64,000 nt of DNA from contig NZ_RJKV01000004.1 in the NCBI RefSeq assembly GCF_003751305.1, positions 62,001 to 126,000 of the forward strand. Reading direction: 5' to 3'. Below the pieces are notes generated by a model. It made no database searches, was not told where the DNA came from, and worked only from the letters and a program-made list of their open reading frames with translations. The position numbers and the translations under genes are program-made. Source of the stretch: Stenotrophomonas rhizophila. GTDB lineage: Bacteria; Pseudomonadota; Gammaproteobacteria; Xanthomonadales; Xanthomonadaceae. This document shows positions 28,776 through 59,366 of the stretch, in pieces; the stretch's first letter is position 1; each line of letters starts with the position of its first letter.

Positions 28776-29414
28776 ATGAAAATCGCTCTCGTTGGTGCCA
28801 CCGGCAACATCGGCCGTGAAATCACCCGCCAGGCCCTCGCCCGCGGCCATCAGGTCACCGCCATCGTCCGCCGTGAGACCGACCTCCCGGCGGAACTGGA
28901 CGGCGCCCAGCTGGCCGTGGCCGCGCTGGATGACACCGACGCGCTGGCCGCCGTGATCGCCGGCCATGACGTCCTGGCCAGCGCCTTCGGCCCGCGCCCG
29001 GGCGATGAACCCGCCACGGTGACCACCACCAGTGCCGCCCTGGTCGCCGCGGCGCGCCAGGCCGGCGTGCCCCGCTTCATCATGGTCGGTGGCGCCGGCA
29101 GCCTGGAAGTCGCCCCCGGTGTGCAGCTGGTGGACACCGAGGGCTTCCCGGATGCCTACAAGCCGGTCGCCCTGGCCGCCCGCGAGACGCTGAAGCAGCT
29201 GCGCGCCGTAGACGACCTCGACTGGACGTTCTACTCCCCGGCCGCCGAAATCGGCCCCGGCCCGCAGCGCGGCGGCTTCCGCACCCAAGCGAAGAACTTC
29301 CTGGTCGGCGATGACGGCCACAGCCGGATCAGCTACCCCGACTACGCCGACGCCTTCGTCAGCGAAATCGAAACCCCGCAATACCTGCGCCAGATCGCCA
29401 CCGTCGCGTACTGA
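28776..29414 (+). CDS. NAD(P)-binding protein, NmrA/SDR-like
   Basis: 212 residues. Rossmann fold starting at residue 1 with the dinucleotide motif IALVGATGNIGREI, then FIMVGGAGSLEVAPG and YKPVALAARETLKQL. It lacks the usual SDR YxxxK pair, as do many atypical members (NmrA-like, flavin reductase-like). The likely role is a small oxidoreductase or redox sensor induced under the divergent LysR. Start at the ATG at 28776. Confidence 0.85.
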   Translation: MKIALVGATGNIGREITRQALARGHQVTAIVRRETDLPAELDGAQLAVAALDDTDALAAVIAGHDVLASAFGPRPGDEPATVTTTSAALVAAARQAGVPRFIMVGGAGSLEVAPGVQLVDTEGFPDAYKPVALAARETLKQLRAVDDLDWTFYSPAAEIGPGPQRGGFRTQAKNFLVGDDGHSRISYPDYADAFVSEIETPQYLRQIATVAY

Positions 29415-29465: not shown

Positions 29466-30389
29466 ATGCCCACGCTCTCCCGCACCACCCTGGCCCTCAG
29501 CCTCGCCCTGATCACCGGCCTCACCGCCCTCACCCCAGCCACCAGCCATGCCCGCCCCGCCGCGAACGCGCCCGCGCAGGCCGCTCCCCTCGCGGTGCAG
29601 CCGTACCACCCCGGCGACGACGCCCTGTTCGCGGTCTCCTCGACCCTGATCACCGGCCGTCACGACGCCATCCTCGTGGATGCCCAGTTCGCCGCCACCG
29701 ATGCCGCGCAGCTGGTCCAACGCATCCGTGACTCAGGCAAACGCCTGACCACGATCTACATCAGCCACGGCGACCCCGACTACTACTTCGGCCTGGCCAC
29801 CCTGCAGGACGCCTTCCCCGACGCCCGCATCCTCGCCACGCCCGCTACCGTCGCCCACATCAACGCCACCCAGGCCGCCAAACTCGCGTTCTGGGGCCCC
29901 CAGATGGGCGCAGGCAAGCCGAGCCGCATCGTCATCCCCGCCCCACTGGACGGCGACACCCTTACCCTCGAAGGCCAACCGATCAAGATCATCGGCCTCA
30001 CCGGCCCCACCCCGGACCGCACCGTCCTGTGGATCCCCTCCCAGCGCACCCTCCTCGGCGGCATCCCCATCGTCGCCGGCGAACACGTATGGATGGCCGA
30101 CACCCAAAGCGCGCAATCACACGCGCACTGGCTGCAGACCCTCGCCACCATCAAGGCCCTGAACCCCACCCGCGTCATCCCCGGCCACTACGCAGCCGAT
30201 GCCGCCCTGGACATCAGCGCCGTGGATTTCACCGCCAACTACATCCGCGCGTTCGACGAAGAAACCGCACACAGCAACGATGCCAACGCACTGATCGCCG
30301 CAATGAAAAAGCGCTATCCAAACCTGGCTGGCGAGAGCTCACTGGAACTGAGCGCGAAAATAGCCAAGGGTGAAATGCAGTGGCCGTAA
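29466..30389 (+). CDS. Exported metallo-beta-lactamase-fold protein with atypical metal motif
   Basis: 307 residues. Signal peptide (LALSLALITGLTALTPATSHA). The MBL fold is recognisable (DAILVDAQF, TIYISHGDPDYYFG, VIPGHYAADA) but the usual HxHxDH metal motif reads HGDPDY, with Asp and Tyr where His is expected. A subgroup of secreted MBL proteins shares this HGDPDYYFG form. Substrate unknown. It follows the NmrA-type gene by 51 bases and is probably co-transcribed. Third codon positions are strongly biased to C and A, unlike most of the window. Confidence 0.85.
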   Translation: MPTLSRTTLALSLALITGLTALTPATSHARPAANAPAQAAPLAVQPYHPGDDALFAVSSTLITGRHDAILVDAQFAATDAAQLVQRIRDSGKRLTTIYISHGDPDYYFGLATLQDAFPDARILATPATVAHINATQAAKLAFWGPQMGAGKPSRIVIPAPLDGDTLTLEGQPIKIIGLTGPTPDRTVLWIPSQRTLLGGIPIVAGEHVWMADTQSAQSHAHWLQTLATIKALNPTRVIPGHYAADAALDISAVDFTANYIRAFDEETAHSNDANALIAAMKKRYPNLAGESSLELSAKIAKGEMQWP

Positions 30390-30829
30390 TCGCGCGAAAG
30401 TAACAGGCTGGGCGGCGCGAAGGTGGCACGATCACCACGCGTAAGTGAGACCTGAGCGGTCGATCCAGATGCAAGTCCAACCAGCACGAAACGACCGCAA
30501 CTGTCGGCCGCAACGTCGCCAAGAACAGTCGAGTGACTGCAGCAATACAGTCCTAGCGGACAACGTCTTCAGTGGACCCAGAAAAGTGCAACGCACCTAT
30601 CCATGCGCACCGGCCAAGTGTCGGAGGGACGGCGCGGGTGGGGTATCGGGACCGTGTGTTGCCATGGATGGCAACACACGAGCTTACAGGGACGTACTTG
30701 CAGCGGGTCCCGATACCTCACCCGCGTCGTCCCAAACCCTCATCACCCGAACACCAGCGCATCCGTCGTTGACGTTGGCGTTGGGGTCAACGCTGATATC
30801 GATCTTGAAAAAAGCCAAAAAACGACCAA
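30390..30829. other. 440-base gap between convergent MBL and dinB genes
   Basis: Contains the structured element copy 1 (30626-30733). I see no gene, promoter or ordinary terminator in the rest (30390-30625 and 30734-30829). Short open frames across the element are by-products of its palindromes. Confidence 0.7.
30626..30733 (+). repeat. Structured element, copy 1
   Basis: 108 bases. Outer stem: 30626-30653 pairs with 30706-30733 over 28 positions without a gap, 26 Watson-Crick and two G-U on the plus strand (30632/30727, 30641/30718). Inner hairpin: 30654-30665 with 30668-30679, 12 bp, loop GG. The 26-base linker at 30680-30705 (GAGCTTACAGGGACG, then TACTTGCAGCG) is left single-stranded between the two. 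Copies 2 and 3 share the same plan and nearly the same linker. Function unknown; not an insertion sequence and no coding potential. Confidence 0.85.
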
Positions 30830-31924
30830 CTACACATCACCAAGATGATCAAACAACCCCGGCTGGCGTACCACCTCCCGCTCGCGGAATCCCCCCAACC
30901 CCACCCCCACCAACCGATACCGCGTCTCCAACGGCAACTCCACCCGCGCCCGCAACCCCAACGCAATATCGCGCAGCTCCTCCACCGAATCCGGCGGCGA
31001 CTCCGGCGTAAAACTGCGCGTAATGATCCGGAACTGCGACGTCTTCAACTTCAACACCACCGTATGCCCCACCCGGTCCGTCTTGCGCGTCGCCAGCCAC
31101 GTCTTCTCCGCCAACTGCACGATCGCCGGCGCCAGATCCTCCAACAACAGATCCTCCGCGAACGTATCCTCCGACGAAATCGACTGCACCGGCTGATCCG
31201 GCTCCACCGGCCGCTCATCCACACCGCGCGCACGATTGAACAACCGCCCCCCGAACGTCCCGAACCGCGCCTCCAGTTCCTCCAGCGGCAGCGCACGCAG
31301 ATCACCCACCGTCGCCACGCCCAGCTCGGCCAGCTTCGCTGCCATCACCTTGCCCACGCCCGGCACACGGTTCACCGGCAACGGCGTCAGGAACTGCTCG
31401 ATGCGATGCGGCGGCACCACGAACTGCCCATCGGGCTTGCGCCAATCCGAGGCGATCTTGGCCAGGAACTTGTTCGGCGCGATCCCCGCCGAGGCGGTCA
31501 ACTGCGTCTCTTCGCGGATCTGCGCGCGGATGATCTGCGCGATCTCCGTCGCCACCGTCATCCCGCCCTTGTGCTCGGTCACATCCAGATACGCCTCGTC
31601 CAACGACAACGGTTCCACCAGATCCGTATGCCGCAGGAATATCTCGCGCACCTGGCGTGACACCGCCTTGTAGCGGGCGAAATCCGGCGGCACGAATACC
31701 GCATCCGGACACAACCGCTCCGCGCGCAGCGCCGGCATCGCCGAACGCACCCCGAACACCCGCGCCTCGTACGAGGCCGCGCAGACCACCGAGCGCATCC
31801 CACGCCACGCCACCACCACCGGTTTGCCCCGCAAAGAAGGGTCGTCACGCTGCTCCACGGACGCGTAAAACGCATCCATGTCGACGTGAATGATCTTGCG
31901 GGGGCGGGACACGGGCGTTGGCAC
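30830..31924 (-). CDS. dinB: DNA polymerase IV (Y-family)
   Basis: 364 residues from a GTG at 31924. Error-prone lesion-bypass polymerase. Palm catalytic motifs HVDMDAFYASVEQ (residues 13-25) and SLDEAYLDV, then helix-hairpin-helix NRVPGVGKVMAAKLAELGV and the little-finger domain. It ends GLFDHLGDV; a QxxLF-like clamp-binding motif may be QPGLF. I see no LexA-type box upstream. Base use in the 3' third (30850-31200) is extremely C/A-rich on the plus strand, changing to balanced around 31450. Confidence 0.93.
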   Translation of the reverse strand: MPTPVSRPRKIIHVDMDAFYASVEQRDDPSLRGKPVVVAWRGMRSVVCAASYEARVFGVRSAMPALRAERLCPDAVFVPPDFARYKAVSRQVREIFLRHTDLVEPLSLDEAYLDVTEHKGGMTVATEIAQIIRAQIREETQLTASAGIAPNKFLAKIASDWRKPDGQFVVPPHRIEQFLTPLPVNRVPGVGKVMAAKLAELGVATVGDLRALPLEELEARFGTFGGRLFNRARGVDERPVEPDQPVQSISSEDTFAEDLLLEDLAPAIVQLAEKTWLATRKTDRVGHTVVLKLKTSQFRIITRSFTPESPPDSVEELRDIALGLRARVELPLETRYRLVGVGLGGFREREVVRQPGLFDHLGDV

Positions 31925-55308: not shown

Positions 55309-57429
55309 ATGTCCAAGCTGCGTCGCCCCACCCTGATGCTCGCCATTGCCGCCAGCCTGTCGCTGGGCCTGGCCGCCTGCGACCGCGAGGCCACCGCGCC
55401 GGCCGCAGCCGCGCCCGAGACCGCCCCGGCCGAACCGGCTGCACCCAAGCCGCAGCTGGGCAGTTTCGGTTTCGACGCCGCCGGCATGGACCGCAGCGTT
55501 GCCGCCGGCGATGACTTCTTCGGCTTCGCCAACGGTACCTGGGTCAAGAACACCGAGATTCCGGCCGACCGCTCCAGCTACGGCAGCTTCAACGTCATTT
55601 CCGAAAAGACCCTGGCCGACACCCGCGCGATCCTCGAAGGCGCCGCAGCCGATACCAAGGCCGAGGGCGAGACCAAGCTGATCGGCGACTACTACGCCGC
55701 GTTCATGGATGAGACCGGCATCGAATCGCGCGGCGCCGCTCCGGTCAAGCCAGAACTGGACGCCATCGCGGGCATCGGCGACAAGGCCGCGCTGGCCACC
55801 GCCCTGGGTGGCACCCTGCGCGCCGATGTGGACCTGCTCAACGCCACCAACTTCTACACCGACCGCCTGTTCGGCGTCTGGGTCTCGGTGGATCTGCTGC
55901 AGCCGGACCGCACCGCGCCGTACCTGGTGCAGGGCGGCCTGGGCCTGCCGGACCGCGACTTCTACCTGCAGGGCGGCCGCATGGCCGAGATCCGCAAGCA
56001 GTACCAGGCCTACATTGCCCAGGTACTGCAGCTGGCCGGGGTCGCCGATCCGGCGGCCAAGGCCCAGCGCATCCTCGCGCTGGAGACCAAGATCGCCCAG
56101 GCCCACGCCACCCAGGAAGACACCAACGACGTCGCCAAGGGCGCCAACGCCTGGAAGCAGGCCGACCTGAGCGCCAAGGCCCCGGGCATGGACTGGAGCG
56201 CCTTCCTGGCCTCGGCCGGCCTGGACGCCCAGCAGGACTTCATCGTGTGGCAGCCCAAGGCCGTGGCCGGCATTTCGCGCCTGGTCGCGACCGAGCCGCT
56301 GGAGGTCTGGAAGGACTACCTCGCCTTCCATGCGCTGGACCGCGCCGCCCCGTACCTGCCCAAGTCGTTCGCCGATGCGCGCTTCGCTTTCCACGGCACC
56401 ACGCTCAACGGCACGCCGCAGCAGAGCGAGCGCTGGAAGCGTGCGGTGGATGACAGCAACCATGCCGTCGGCGAAGCCATCGGCAAGCTGTACGTCGAGC
56501 GTCATTTCGACCCGGCCACCAAGGCCCGTGCCGACGAGATGGCCAAGAACATCATCGCGGCCTTCGCCAAGCGCATCGATGCACTGGCGTGGATGTCACC
56601 GCAGACCAAGGCGCGTGCCAAGGCCAAGGTCGATGGCCTGACCGTGGGCATGGGCTACCCGGACAAGTGGCGCGACTACACCGGCCTTGAGATCAAGCGC
56701 GATGACGCGCTGGGCAATGCCGAGCGTGCGGAGCTGTTCGAGTACCGCCGCAACATCGCCAAGCTGGGCAAGCCGGTGGACCACAGCGAGTGGGCGATGC
56801 TGCCGCAGACCATCAATGCGATGAACGTGCCGCTGGAAAACCGTCTGGTGTTCCCGGCTGCGATCCTGCAGCCGCCGTTCTTCGACGGTGCGGCCGATGA
56901 TGCGGTGAACTACGGTGCGATCGGTGCGGTGATCGGCCATGAGATCAGCCACGGGTTCGACAACGCCGGTGCGCTGTTCGATGAGACGGGCAAGCTGCAG
57001 AACTGGTGGACGGCGGAAGATCTGAAGAAGTTCGATGCGGCCGGTGATGCGCTGGCGGCGCAGTTCAGCAGCTACAGTCCGTTCCCGGGGGTGTCGGTGA
57101 ATGGTCGTTTGACGCTGGGCGAGAACATTGCGGACGTGGCGGGTCTGTCGACGGCTTACGATGCGTATCAGTTGTCGTTGCAGGGCAAGCCGGGGCAGAC
57201 GCTGGAGGGCTTTACGCCGGATCAGCGGTTCTTCCTGGGCTTTGCGCAGGCGTGGCGGAGCAAGGCGCGTGAGCAGGCGTTGCGTAATTCGCTGTTGACG
57301 AATGTGCATGCGCCGGGGCAGTTCCGTGCGTTGACGGTGCGCAATCTGGATGCGTGGTATCCGGCCTTCGAGGTGAAGGAAGGCCAGAAGCTGTATCTGG
57401 CGCCGGAGAAGCGGGTCAAGGTGTGGTGA
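55309..57429 (+). CDS. M13-family metallopeptidase lipoprotein (neprilysin/PepO-like)
   Basis: 706 residues. Lipoprotein signal with lipobox ending LAAC (Cys about 22), then an Ala/Pro linker, the M13 N-domain (GDDFFGFANGTWVKNTEIP) and the catalytic domain with zinc motif VIGHEISHGFDNAG and GENIADVAG (third ligand Glu). C-terminal VKVW as usual. Periplasmic oligopeptide degradation is expected. From about 57000 the codon choice changes sharply from C-ending to G/T-ending (Ala GCC to GCG, Leu CTG to TTG), approaching structured element copy 2. Start at the ATG at 55309. Confidence 0.93.
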   Translation: MSKLRRPTLMLAIAASLSLGLAACDREATAPAAAAPETAPAEPAAPKPQLGSFGFDAAGMDRSVAAGDDFFGFANGTWVKNTEIPADRSSYGSFNVISEKTLADTRAILEGAAADTKAEGETKLIGDYYAAFMDETGIESRGAAPVKPELDAIAGIGDKAALATALGGTLRADVDLLNATNFYTDRLFGVWVSVDLLQPDRTAPYLVQGGLGLPDRDFYLQGGRMAEIRKQYQAYIAQVLQLAGVADPAAKAQRILALETKIAQAHATQEDTNDVAKGANAWKQADLSAKAPGMDWSAFLASAGLDAQQDFIVWQPKAVAGISRLVATEPLEVWKDYLAFHALDRAAPYLPKSFADARFAFHGTTLNGTPQQSERWKRAVDDSNHAVGEAIGKLYVERHFDPATKARADEMAKNIIAAFAKRIDALAWMSPQTKARAKAKVDGLTVGMGYPDKWRDYTGLEIKRDDALGNAERAELFEYRRNIAKLGKPVDHSEWAMLPQTINAMNVPLENRLVFPAAILQPPFFDGAADDAVNYGAIGAVIGHEISHGFDNAGALFDETGKLQNWWTAEDLKKFDAAGDALAAQFSSYSPFPGVSVNGRLTLGENIADVAGLSTAYDAYQLSLQGKPGQTLEGFTPDQRFFLGFAQAWRSKAREQALRNSLLTNVHAPGQFRALTVRNLDAWYPAFEVKEGQKLYLAPEKRVKVW

Positions 57430-57460
57430 GGCTGTTCATCGCGCTTTGCTGAGATGAAAG

Positions 57461-57485
57461 AACGGGCGCTTCGGCGCCCGTTTTT
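57461..57485 (+). terminator. Intrinsic terminator with TTCG loop
   Basis: 9-bp stem AACGGGCGC (57461-57469) and complement (57474-57482) closed by the very stable C(TTCG)G tetraloop, ending in T5. Terminates the M13 peptidase gene. Confidence 0.92.
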
Positions 57486-57495
57486 CTTTGCTGTA

Positions 57496-57551
57496 GAGCT
57501 GGAGAGCTGTAGAGCTGGAGAGCTGGAGAGCTGGAGAGCTGGAGAGCTGGA
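57496..57551. repeat. 8-base tandem repeat, seven units
   Basis: GAGCTGGA repeated seven times in a row (second unit GAGCTGTA), with a partial unit before. It sits just after the terminator and before element copy 2. Confidence 0.92.
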
Positions 57552-57588
57552 GCAGAGCAACGGCTGGGGTTTGCCGCTTCTCTGAACT

Positions 57589-57696
57589 GGGCGGGCATGG
57601 GTGGGGTGTCGGGACCCGCTGCAAGTACGTCCATGTAAGCTCGTATGCCGCCATCCATGGCGGCATACGGTCCCGCCACCCCACCCATGCCCACCC
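57589..57696 (-). repeat. Structured element, copy 2
   Basis: Same plan as copy 1, on the minus strand. Outer stem 57589-57616 with 57669-57696 (28 positions; one mismatch and one G-U when read on the minus strand). Inner 12-bp hairpin 57643-57654 with 57657-57668. The 26-base linker at 57617-57642 is identical to that of copy 3. Compared with copy 1, four outer and three inner base pairs changed on both sides. Confidence 0.85.
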
Positions 57697-57986
57697 TCTG
57701 ACAGTGGGCTGGTGCGCAAGGGGAAAGCAGGTGCTGCCCCTGCGGCTCCGGCAGTGACGATGTGTTCTTTGCTCTGTTGCTTTGCTCTGAAGTTTTGCCA
57801 CTCGACTACGCGGCACGGCATTGCCTTACTGCTCTGCACTTCCTCTGAGCAGCTGCGTACTTCGCCGCTCAGCATTCGCGCAGCGATCTGGTACTTGAAC
57901 GTGCAGCCTGGCGCTGCCACTCAGCGTTGCCGCTTAGTGCTGTTCGCTGGCTTTTGACCTCAGCATGGCCACCAGCCAATTGTCGG

Positions 57987-58096
57987 GGGGCGGGCACGTG
58001 CAGGCTGGGGGGACCGTATGCCGCCATGGATGGCGGCATACGAGCTTACATGGACGTACTTGCAGCGGGTCCCGGAAGCCTGCACGTGCCCGACCC
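57987..58096 (+). repeat. Structured element, copy 3
   Basis: Outer stem 57987-58015 with 58068-58096 (29 positions, 25 paired). Its sequence is largely different from the arms of copies 1 and 2, for example GGGCACGTGCAGGCT against its complement. Inner hairpin 58016-58027 with 58030-58041 and linker 58042-58067 are identical to copy 2. It lies 35 bases after the stop codon of the minus-strand MpaB-type gene. Confidence 0.85.
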
Positions 58097-58130
58097 AACC
58101 ATCGGACACAGGCACTCGCGATTCACCGCT

Positions 58131-59048
58131 TCAAGGCCAATCAGCAAGCACGCCAGCGGGCACACCCATCCGGGTGCACGCCCGCGTCGCCAGGCCATCC
58201 TGCAGTGCACGCCGGAACAAGGGCGCCATACCCCTCAGTACCACGGCAGACGCCCGCGACTGCGCACGCTGCATCGGCGTGCGCGCCAGCATCGTCGTCG
58301 CCCAGTCCGGCAACAGCGCCGCGCCCGCACCGAGGAACAGCTCGCGTGACAATCCCGCCATCGGTACCGGCAAGCGGATGCCGGACAACACCGCCAGTAC
58401 CTCTTGCGAACGGGCATCGAACACCAGCCCGGATTGCTGGCGCGCGAAGTACGCGTCGACCTCTGCTTCCGAGGCGGGTACATCGGTGGCGCCGAGTGCT
58501 TCGGCAACGCGCTTGTACTCGCGGTAATACTGATCGGCGACCGCCGTGGGCACATCGCGGCAATACCGCCGGCAGCCTTGCAGGAAGCCGTAGGCCTCGG
58601 TGACATGCACCCAGGTCAGCAGCGCGGGATCGTCGGCGGAATAGGCACGACCGTCCGCCGTGTGCCCGCGTACCTGTGCGTGGATGCCGGTCACCTTGGC
58701 GATCAGTGCCTCGACTTCCGCCGTCGGTGCATAGGTAGTGCCGGCGACAAACGCGGTGGTGCGGCGCAGGCGGCCAACCAGGTCATCGCGGAAGTTGGAG
58801 TGGTCGTACACGCCGGCCAGGGCCAGCGGATGCAGGGTCTGCAGCATCAGCGCGCACAGGCCACCGGCAAGCATCCCGGGAAATTCAGCGTGCACGCGCC
58901 AGGTGACGCTGTCCGGGCCGAACCAGCCGGGGTCACCCAGCGGGTGGTCGTAGTCGATCCCGCTCTGGCCGCGGGGGAAAGCACCCAGTACCCAGCGGCG
59001 GATCGGCGCGGTGGCGGGGCGGGCAAGCGAACGGAACAGGGAGGGCAT
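58131..59048 (-). CDS. Oxygenase MpaB family protein (DUF2236)
   Basis: 305 residues. DUF2236/MpaB-type fold, alpha-helical, with motifs GDPGWFGPDSVTWRVHAEF, LQTLHPLALAGVYDHSNF and the conserved TWVHVTEAYGFL. Relatives (MpaB, latex-clearing protein) are heme-b oxygenases that cleave prenyl chains; whether this one binds heme is not shown by sequence alone. ATG at 59048; a TTG at 59060 is the longer option. Confidence 0.8.
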   Translation of the reverse strand: MPSLFRSLARPATAPIRRWVLGAFPRGQSGIDYDHPLGDPGWFGPDSVTWRVHAEFPGMLAGGLCALMLQTLHPLALAGVYDHSNFRDDLVGRLRRTTAFVAGTTYAPTAEVEALIAKVTGIHAQVRGHTADGRAYSADDPALLTWVHVTEAYGFLQGCRRYCRDVPTAVADQYYREYKRVAEALGATDVPASEAEVDAYFARQQSGLVFDARSQEVLAVLSGIRLPVPMAGLSRELFLGAGAALLPDWATTMLARTPMQRAQSRASAVVLRGMAPLFRRALQDGLATRACTRMGVPAGVLADWP

Positions 59049-59366
59049 CAGCAGTACCAAAGGCGGTGCGGACCGGCATTTCGCGCGGATGCGTCAATTC
59101 TGCGTGATACCGCCGGGGCTGGCGAGGACGCGGAGGCTGGGCGGGTGCACATTGTGCAGATGCAGCATGGGAACACCTGTCCCATGCCTATTTACCCGGC
59201 GATTTACGTGCCGCAGTGCGCAAATCCGCTGCGGGTATGCCCATTCAGGCAGGAATGACGCCGGATCTTTGCGCTTTGCCCATTGCCAAGCGCGGTGAAA
59301 GTGCTAGAACTGGACGTGCCACAACGTCGTCCAATGCGCTGCCGCACGTTCCAGAAGGAGCTCGTC
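59049..59366. other. 318-base divergent gap
   Basis: Promoter region of the MpaB-type gene and of the membrane protein at 59367. Contains a short palindrome GCATGGGA...TCCCATGC (59165-59172, 59180-59187) that could be an operator. No gene seen. Confidence 0.4.

Follow-up and report, generated by a model that had tools for sequence, protein, structure and literature searches.

Introduction

Among the described repeats of Stenotrophomonas, those closest to the element studied here are the self-complementary TIR repeats of the TIRYT gene ORF 1152 in S. maltophilia K279a (PMC3733652). We analysed a window of 64,000 nucleotides from Stenotrophomonas rhizophila (the whole stretch, G000:C4:62001–126000, where G000 is the 4.09-Mb genome), which contains three copies of a dispersed repeat of approximately 146 nt, hereafter the element, with the predicted fold of a three-way-junction hairpin. 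In Stenotrophomonas and some related bacteria, this hairpin repeat anchors a local strand-directed substitution bias, in which G is traded for C over approximately 1 kb of flanking DNA. Near the repeat, on its own strand (the element strand), G changes to C and A faster and C is lost more slowly, in genes of either direction and mostly 0.5–1.5 kb downstream; in G000 the bias is also present upstream of single copies.

Like the TIR in the passages that describe it, the element is self-complementary, with an outer stem of 27 pairs around two hairpins that have ATGGAT and ANGGAY in their loops, and it lies mostly in close doublets: 26 of the 48 strong copies in G000 form 13 divergent pairs, 210–545 bp apart, all minus then plus. 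Judged by description, the element is probably a member of the published TIR-like family (PMC3733652). The TIR flanks a tyrosine (Y1) transposase gene, whereas the element in G000 does not, and the passages on the TIR mention no flanking skew. REP/SMAG palindromes and REPIN doublets, as described in PMC3686654, are likewise dispersed intergenic palindromes, often inverted doublets, of the same genus. They have a 5′ GTAG or GTGG tetranucleotide by a short palindrome, whereas the element is approximately 146 nt long with two inner hairpins and shows no such foot in its 42-copy consensus. Unlike the element, the SMAG-like palindromes of the genomes analysed here have no flank tilt, that is, no excess of C over G on one strand.

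Bacterial chromosomes carry replication- and transcription-linked skews. The tilt beside the element shares with replication-linked GC skew a strand imbalance of C and G at silent sites, but differs in its kilobase scale, its anchoring to a repeat and its sign, which is set by repeat orientation. CsrA binding sites contain an ANGGA-type motif, and the element, which is known from sequence alone, shares with CsrA/RsmA-binding small RNAs the GGA in its hairpin loops and the extra GGA hairpins of its expanded copies. A substitution pattern centred on a DNA-processing site is also known from meiotic break hotspots of the human germline, where mutation is strand-asymmetric (PMC7615360); there the mutation rate is reported to be raised, whereas beside the element, in a bacterial host, it is not. 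No report of a skew extending over a kilobase beside bacterial repeats was found in the open-licence literature, judged mainly by titles and abstract openings.

Results

Tilt of the flanking DNA on the element strand

Based on a search with a covariance model of the element (R1), we identified 73 matches in G000, of which 48 were strong (>90 bits). The flanks of 33 of these were examined, in stretches centred on BLAST matches of the first copy in the window, which favours copies resembling it; gene calling relied on a simple script based on codon usage, with any call that overlapped an element removed. In the first 500 bp past the element edge, counting all bases, C exceeded G on the element strand in all 24 measurable copies (25 listed), with a mean of +0.20; this test used BLAST edges, and the first bin may include part of an element arm. 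The standard deviation among 800 control bins of 500 bp was 0.064, and two bins exceeded 0.2 in size, with two control loci that turned out to be element-bearing (L030 and L042) kept both among these bins and in the set on which the gene caller was trained.

At fourfold-degenerate sites 0–500 bp downstream in G000, the element strand showed C729:G197 in antisense genes and C357:G188 in sense genes. As the initial annotation had proposed from two genes, the bias thus belongs to the DNA strand, and its sign does not track gene direction. Within 1 kb downstream, the fourfold C:G counts were 3084:1787 for G000 (33 copies), 3266:1687 for G069 (38 copies) and 3956:1939 for G046 (42 copies), with per-locus median tilts of +0.28, +0.34 and +0.36 and with 61, 69 and 73% of loci, respectively, above +0.2. 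For SMAG-like palindromes (46, 28 and 22) and element-free convergent gene pairs (55, 15 and 16), the pooled skew ranged from −0.015 to +0.052, and 6–16% of these control loci exceeded +0.2; all six rank tests of element against control gave p < 1e-4. The comparison with many copies and with element-free regions suggested by the initial annotation therefore bore it out: the fourfold skew is anchored to the element, shows a trend with distance and is missing from both kinds of control.

The tilt at pairs faded by approximately 0.8–1.2 kb in G000 and spanned approximately 2.5 kb in the sense genes of G046. The outward flanks of divergent pairs each followed their nearest element and were tilted in opposite directions, so that the sign of the skew does not track the replichore. 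Single copies, defined by the lack of a second model match within 3 kb, were taken from the model search, since a simpler finder misses degenerate partners in G069 and G046. In G000 these copies had a mean tilt of +0.32 upstream (11/12 positive) and +0.30 downstream (9/12 positive), and the downstream mean in G069 and G046 together was also +0.30 (9/12 positive). The tilt was weak in G005 (first 400 bp of pairs, +0.27 antisense and +0.16 sense), and individual copies without downstream tilt exist, such as those of L015 and L017 and the third copy of the window. The correlation between element quality and tilt gave a Spearman coefficient of 0.34 (p 0.051, 33 copies).

Counts of k-mers of length 1, 2, 3, 4, 6 and 8 showed a general shift of C over G with no dominant word, which weighs against a Chi- or uptake-like motif as the source of the tilt. 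Twofold sites were shifted too. In G046, G/(A+G) was 0.59 near the element compared with 0.74 far from it in sense genes, and 0.87 compared with 0.79 in antisense genes, while C/(C+T) moved little (0.85 and 0.81 in sense genes, 0.80 and 0.81 in antisense genes, near and far). In the antisense genes of G000, C/(C+T) was 0.61 near and 0.74 far.

For other genera, 76 of the 97 element matches were used, after dropping 21 that overlapped a stronger match on the opposite strand. Genus g52 (genome G141) was strongly tilted, with all eight loci positive and a median of +0.32; g28 was weakly tilted (10/13 loci positive, median +0.12) and g11 hardly at all (7/12, median +0.02).

Direction and rate of substitution

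Substitutions were polarised at fourfold sites with a single outgroup, G025, and compared between G000 and G028, a relative that lacks most copies; 1912 sites lay 0–500 bp downstream. On the G000 lineage, G>C was raised near the element (57/471, 0.121 per base, compared with 322/5369 far from it, p 2e-6) and so was G>A (28/471 compared with 188/5369, p 0.011), while C>G (33/902, 0.037 per base, compared with 321/5502, p 0.007) and C>T (16/902 compared with 229/5502, p 2e-4) were lowered. At the same sites on the G028 lineage the counts were G>C 21/471 (0.045), C>G 44/902 (0.049), G>A 12/471 and C>T 21/902, and no substitution type departed from its far value at p < 0.05 (C>T, p 0.059). The net G>C per element locus (29 loci) was positive at 16 and negative at 6 in G000, and positive at 6 and negative at 14 in G028 (paired Wilcoxon p 0.021); dropping the dinB locus altered the polarised result little. 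Upstream of the nearest element, G000 had 47 G>C and 16 C>G, and G028 had 29 and 27. These results indicate that the bias is ongoing in the element-bearing G000 lineage and not in G028.

The total divergence on the G000 lineage was 0.083 near the element and 0.086–0.088 far from it. The fourfold difference between G069 and G046 (255 reciprocal best hits) was 0.083 at 0–400 bp, then 0.124, 0.122, 0.110, 0.121 and 0.123 in the following bins, and 0.145 beyond 5 kb. Added mutation alone is insufficient, because C>T and C>G fall below their far level near the element. Since several substitution types shift together and C is protected, a fixation bias (through selection or conversion) or a redistributed strand exposure is favoured over added mutation. 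Deamination alone was rejected, since direct G>C and C>G also change, and conversion confined to C/G is weakened as an explanation, since twofold sites shift too.

dinB orthologues and a relative without most copies

The gene dinB was present in all 91 genomes of the genus that were searched, and 30 loci were measured, with L082 and L083, which stop at a contig edge, excluded from the reading of element state. A strong excess of G over C on the coding strand accompanied an opposite-strand element beside the gene in G000, G061, G028, G027, G042 and G071, where the element was found by script, and likewise in G084, G046, G043, G069, G070 and G081, where it was identified by eye; the fourfold sites of dinB in G069 showed G188:C12 (L088). 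In G063, where dinB has no element, the values were +0.12 to +0.42, and where the element is co-oriented with dinB (G035, G073, G062 and G011) they were −0.10 to +0.21 in the 3′ 750 bp; orientation was read by eye for G062, G011 and G001. The dinB skew thus mostly follows the presence and orientation of the element, as the initial annotation would have it for orthologues, with exceptions that do not fit: dinB of G002 shows tilt although no element was seen next to it, the last 250 bp of the gene without a detected element reach +0.44 to +0.54 in G024, G025, G026, G045 and G087 and +0.64 in G066, and dinB of G082 has +0.23 to +0.66. In L120 (G070) and L119 (G002), a C-rich zone has its peak approximately 1.8–2.1 kb left of the dinB stop, at a distance from the present element or the end of dinB, and declines toward it, as if from an earlier second element.

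Six elements were detected at 19 matched loci of G028, and for 24 of the 29 G000 elements with enough sites no G028 element was detected within 3 kb. The comparison with this relative is likewise divided, since the directional bias is not seen in G028 but much of the tilt is retained there at many of the loci with no detected element (for example, +0.52 and +0.42). At nine of ten inspected loci the two flanks could be aligned, with G028 having the shorter stretch (15–200 bp compared with 206–763 bp). Some G028 loci show scars or a hybrid of the two pair members, and at the L010, L019 and L020 loci such traces mark the absence as loss. At L179 (the G028 counterpart of the G000 L010 locus), the divergent pair is replaced by a single hybrid element with an insert, joined inside the hairpins. 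If the absence in G028 represents loss, the tilt can outlive the element; a later gain in G000 is possible at loci without a scar or hybrid. The tilted dinB genes without an element and the tilt of G028 at loci with no detected element may be a memory of lost copies.

Fold, copies and distribution of the repeat

The R1 alignment comprised 42 copies taken at random from four genomes. RNAalifold predicted 40 consensus pairs on it, 33 of them with pair-keeping changes on both sides, and the GGA was invariant in both hairpins, the ANGGA-type loop motifs varying only at N. The fold is conserved by this comparison, and its active form may be RNA or single-stranded DNA. Counted on the element strand, the ratio of G.T to A.C mispairs in stems was 41:1 in G000, 30:12 in G005, 27:26 in G069 and 27:23 in G046, and in other genera 39:4 (g26), 11:4 (g52), 19:10 (g11) and 17:20 (g28). 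In expanded copies (L057:9619–9790 on the minus strand and the dinB locus of G046, L112), additional hairpins are nested within the first one, and some of these have GGA in the loop, reminiscent of CsrA-binding RNAs.

Under strict filters (E ≤ 1e-6), R1 matched 39 of 149 genomes of the family and 16 of its 54 genera. All 11 named stretches that carry the extended element core are from Stenotrophomonas; in a search that covered one core class only, G002 and G003 looked like single-copy genomes. Adjacent copies in four other genera were minus-plus in 27 of 32 cases and plus-minus in five, and in genus g26 (L222, L223 and L225) minus-plus pairs are tandemly repeated every ~293 bp, with untilted flanks. 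Several contigs of G000 end in or beside element copies (C1:9–575, C2:1501125–1501732 and C4:57–97); element pairs probably broke the assembly there.

Tandem arrays at the downstream edge

In four Stenotrophomonas genomes, exact period-6 arrays of at least three units were found downstream of 41 of 145 copies, starting at a median of 22 bp past the element, compared with 15 of the 145 on the upstream side and none of 594 control intergenic windows. Other periods were rare downstream (none of period 5, five of period 7 and two of period 8), and the lag-6 match fraction was 0.39–0.45 compared with 0.28–0.29 in controls. Most units read YKGMNN on the element strand, a telomere-like pattern (for example, L012:9976 on the minus strand and L076:13155 on the plus strand), and at the dinB locus they differ among species. 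Hexamer arrays were absent from 76 copies in four other genera. The arrays suggest repeated DNA synthesis at the downstream edge of the element, and are separable from the tilt. An 8-bp variant lies directly downstream of the second copy of the window (57490–57552, minus strand; 7.9 copies of the unit, TRF score 112, top of 13 rows for the window).

The copies in the window and their neighbours

Copy 1 (30610–30756, plus strand; R1 match G000:C4:92610-92756:+, 132.1 bits) is a single copy. Upstream of it lies a gene for an MBL-fold hydrolase (29466–30389, plus strand, PF00753), with C200:G66 at third positions and hence C-rich on the element strand, and downstream and antisense to it lies dinB, encoding a Y-family polymerase (30830–31912, minus strand, PF00817), with C234:G72 in plus-strand letters. 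The base counts of four 60-base lines given by the initial annotation were exact (30001–30060, C33 G14 A6 T7; 30901–30960, C34 G8 A14 T4; 31441–31500, C20 G20 A10 T10; 31741–31800, C29 G15), and the C richness that they pointed to is real and general, recurring over many copies and in more species. With plus-strand third-position skews of +0.50 and +0.53, respectively, both genes fall outside the values seen in 222 control genes of 600 bp or more (coding-strand third-position skew −0.31 to 0.33, mean 0.063, standard deviation 0.108). The placing of the bias at third positions holds to this extent, but other positions are skewed too (+0.41 at position 2 of the MBL-fold gene and +0.20 at position 1 of dinB). 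Only part of the former can be tilt, because the NmrA-like, M13 and fabB-like genes also have a positive position 2 (+0.12 to +0.24). The weakening along dinB is borne out by its fourfold G:C counts on the coding strand (L077), which in 250-bp bins from the element outward were 38:4, 43:3, 31:13 and 44:15.

The extreme of GC skew in the window, −0.249 in a 1-kb profile, lies around copy 1 at 29501–30500. The C-rich zone on its left reaches one gene further, an NAD(P)H-binding (NmrA-like) gene at 28776–29414 (plus strand, PF13460), in which the tilt persists (third position C132:G55). An Rfam scan of 30300–31000 gave seven matches up to E = 1, none reaching its family gathering score; the best, to microRNA models, were taken as chance matches on a long hairpin.

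Copies 2 (57566–57712, minus strand; G000:C4:119566-119712:-, 137.8 bits) and 3 (57972–58118, plus strand; G000:C4:119972-120118:+, 119.8 bits) are the left and right members of a divergent pair. The plus strand becomes G-rich near copy 2 (GC skew +0.156 and +0.157 at 56501–58000). The outward flank of copy 2, which contains the 3′ end of a peptidase M13 gene (55309–57429, plus strand, PF05649 and PF01431), is tilted, with C94:G32 on the strand of copy 2 at 0–1000 bp. At the same distance, the outward flank of copy 3 is untilted (C86:G82), and the gene within it, encoding an MPAB/Lcp-domain protein (58131–59060, minus strand, PF09995), shows no clear tilt.

Discussion

The tilt is anchored to the element, is set by its orientation and depends on its presence. 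The best reading of these observations, which we hold tentatively, is a repeated opening of the element strand at the folded repeat, followed by refilling. The repeat would fold as a hairpin on its own strand, where a putative nuclease (for example, an HUH tyrosine transposase or a hairpin nuclease) would recurrently cut or open that strand. The element strand would then be removed over approximately 1 kb, which would expose its complement as a single strand, and C and A would be favoured on the new strand either during refilling or when this is resolved by mismatch repair or strand exchange. At divergent pairs the openings would occur on opposite strands, and each outward flank would follow its own element, while at a single copy the gap could extend both ways.

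In favour of this opening of the strand, all 24 measurable copies are C-rich, genes of both directions share the excess, downstream gradients recur in two further species, the controls are flat, and the polarised bias is present in G000 but not in G028. The 13 minus-plus pairs and the two-sided effect at single copies of G000 (11/12 positive upstream; upstream G>C:C>G of 47:16) point the same way, as do the hexamer arrays at the edge (41/145 copies compared with 0/594 windows) and the second genus with 8/8 loci, while a fold on the element strand is supported by the G.T excess of 41:1 in G000. Strand opening appears to be the reading that best joins the geometry of pairs, the two-sided effect at single copies and the downstream arrays. 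A symmetry centred on a double-strand break at the element would fit the pairs, but the single copies of G000 tilt both flanks alike; stalling of the replication fork was set aside, as both outward flanks of pairs are tilted.

Several observations weigh against recurrent strand opening. The nick, gap, break and nuclease that this reading calls for are all putative. The four Y1 transposase genes of G000 are each more than 17 kb away from any of the 48 strong copies, and the element-rich genome G178 (genus g11) has no match to Y1_Tnp (PF01797). The upstream mean at single copies of G069 and G046 was 0.00 (5/11 positive), so that the claim of the initial annotation for both sides of the element stands for single copies of G000 and not for these. 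A downstream tilt of 0.2 or less was found in 13 of the 33 G000 copies, and genus g26 has elements without tilt (1/7 loci positive, median −0.06). The G.T:A.C ratio is approximately 1:1 in G069, G046 and g28; the substitution contrast between G000 and G028 is weak at 500–1000 bp (54:64 compared with 38:66); and total divergence is not raised near the element, which therefore lacks the rate signature of a hypermutation tract. Arrays and tilt are also uncoupled across taxa, with tilt and no arrays in g52, and arrays with weak tilt in G005.

The low divergence with suppressed loss of C is what a fixation bias predicts, and selection on RNA would provide one: if transcripts of the element strand span the repeat and its flanks, RNA low in G and unstructured might be weakly favoured at silent sites (for example, through Rho-dependent termination or folding controlled by CsrA/RsmA). 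G is indeed disfavoured relative to both C and A, twofold sites included (0.59 compared with 0.74 for G/(A+G) in sense genes of G046), both loops carry ANGGA-type motifs resembling CsrA sites, and G.T mispairs exceed A.C in G000, G005 and g26. This explanation is nevertheless somewhat unlikely in our view, as the tilt crosses sense and antisense genes over at least 1 kb, and antisense genes upstream of single copies, and would need long antisense transcripts. Mismatches of C.C escape MutS, whereas those of G.G are corrected, and recombination that starts at the repeat, with the heteroduplex always on the same strand, could by this route convert G to C on the element strand. Unraised divergence and a fourfold shift consisting mainly of C/G exchange, in which G>C doubles and C>G falls, would agree with such gene conversion; the twofold sites, where C/G exchange is not silent, shift too, and we regard it as unlikely.

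The initial annotation had suggested a directional mutational or copying process spreading from the element, and the raised G>C and G>A and the arrays that begin just downstream are what might be expected of it. In its plain form, as additive hypermutation or error-prone copying, this view was not supported: fourfold divergence shows no rise near the element and the loss of C is below normal, with C>T and C>G under their far values, making an additive process improbable. Ordinary strand asymmetry, whether from codon preference, transcription of neighbours, replication direction or insertion into DNA already tilted, is very improbable. Replication and transcription skews do exist in bacterial chromosomes, and some dinB orthologues are tilted with no detected element, but the sign is the same in sense and antisense genes and opposite on the outward flanks of pairs, the controls are flat, and the directional substitutions of G000 do not occur in G028 at the same sites.

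Returning to strand opening, the repeat may, if we may suggest it with some reserve, act in cis as a 'strand pump'. It would determine the strand that undergoes opening and refilling, or pairing during recombination, and while the repeat persisted its neighbours, whatever their function, would drift from G to C and A on the element strand with no rise in mutation rate. If this is true, non-coding repeats would shape the base composition and codon choice of their neighbours, dinB included, in a direction set by repeat orientation, and what is read near such repeats from codon bias, from substitution models or as a signal of selection could be a by-product. The copies would provide a natural assay of strand-specific DNA processing in bacteria, with copies as replicates and missing copies as controls, in which the decay length would report the length of the processed tract, and the effect of palindromic repeats on chromosomal DNA would become testable.

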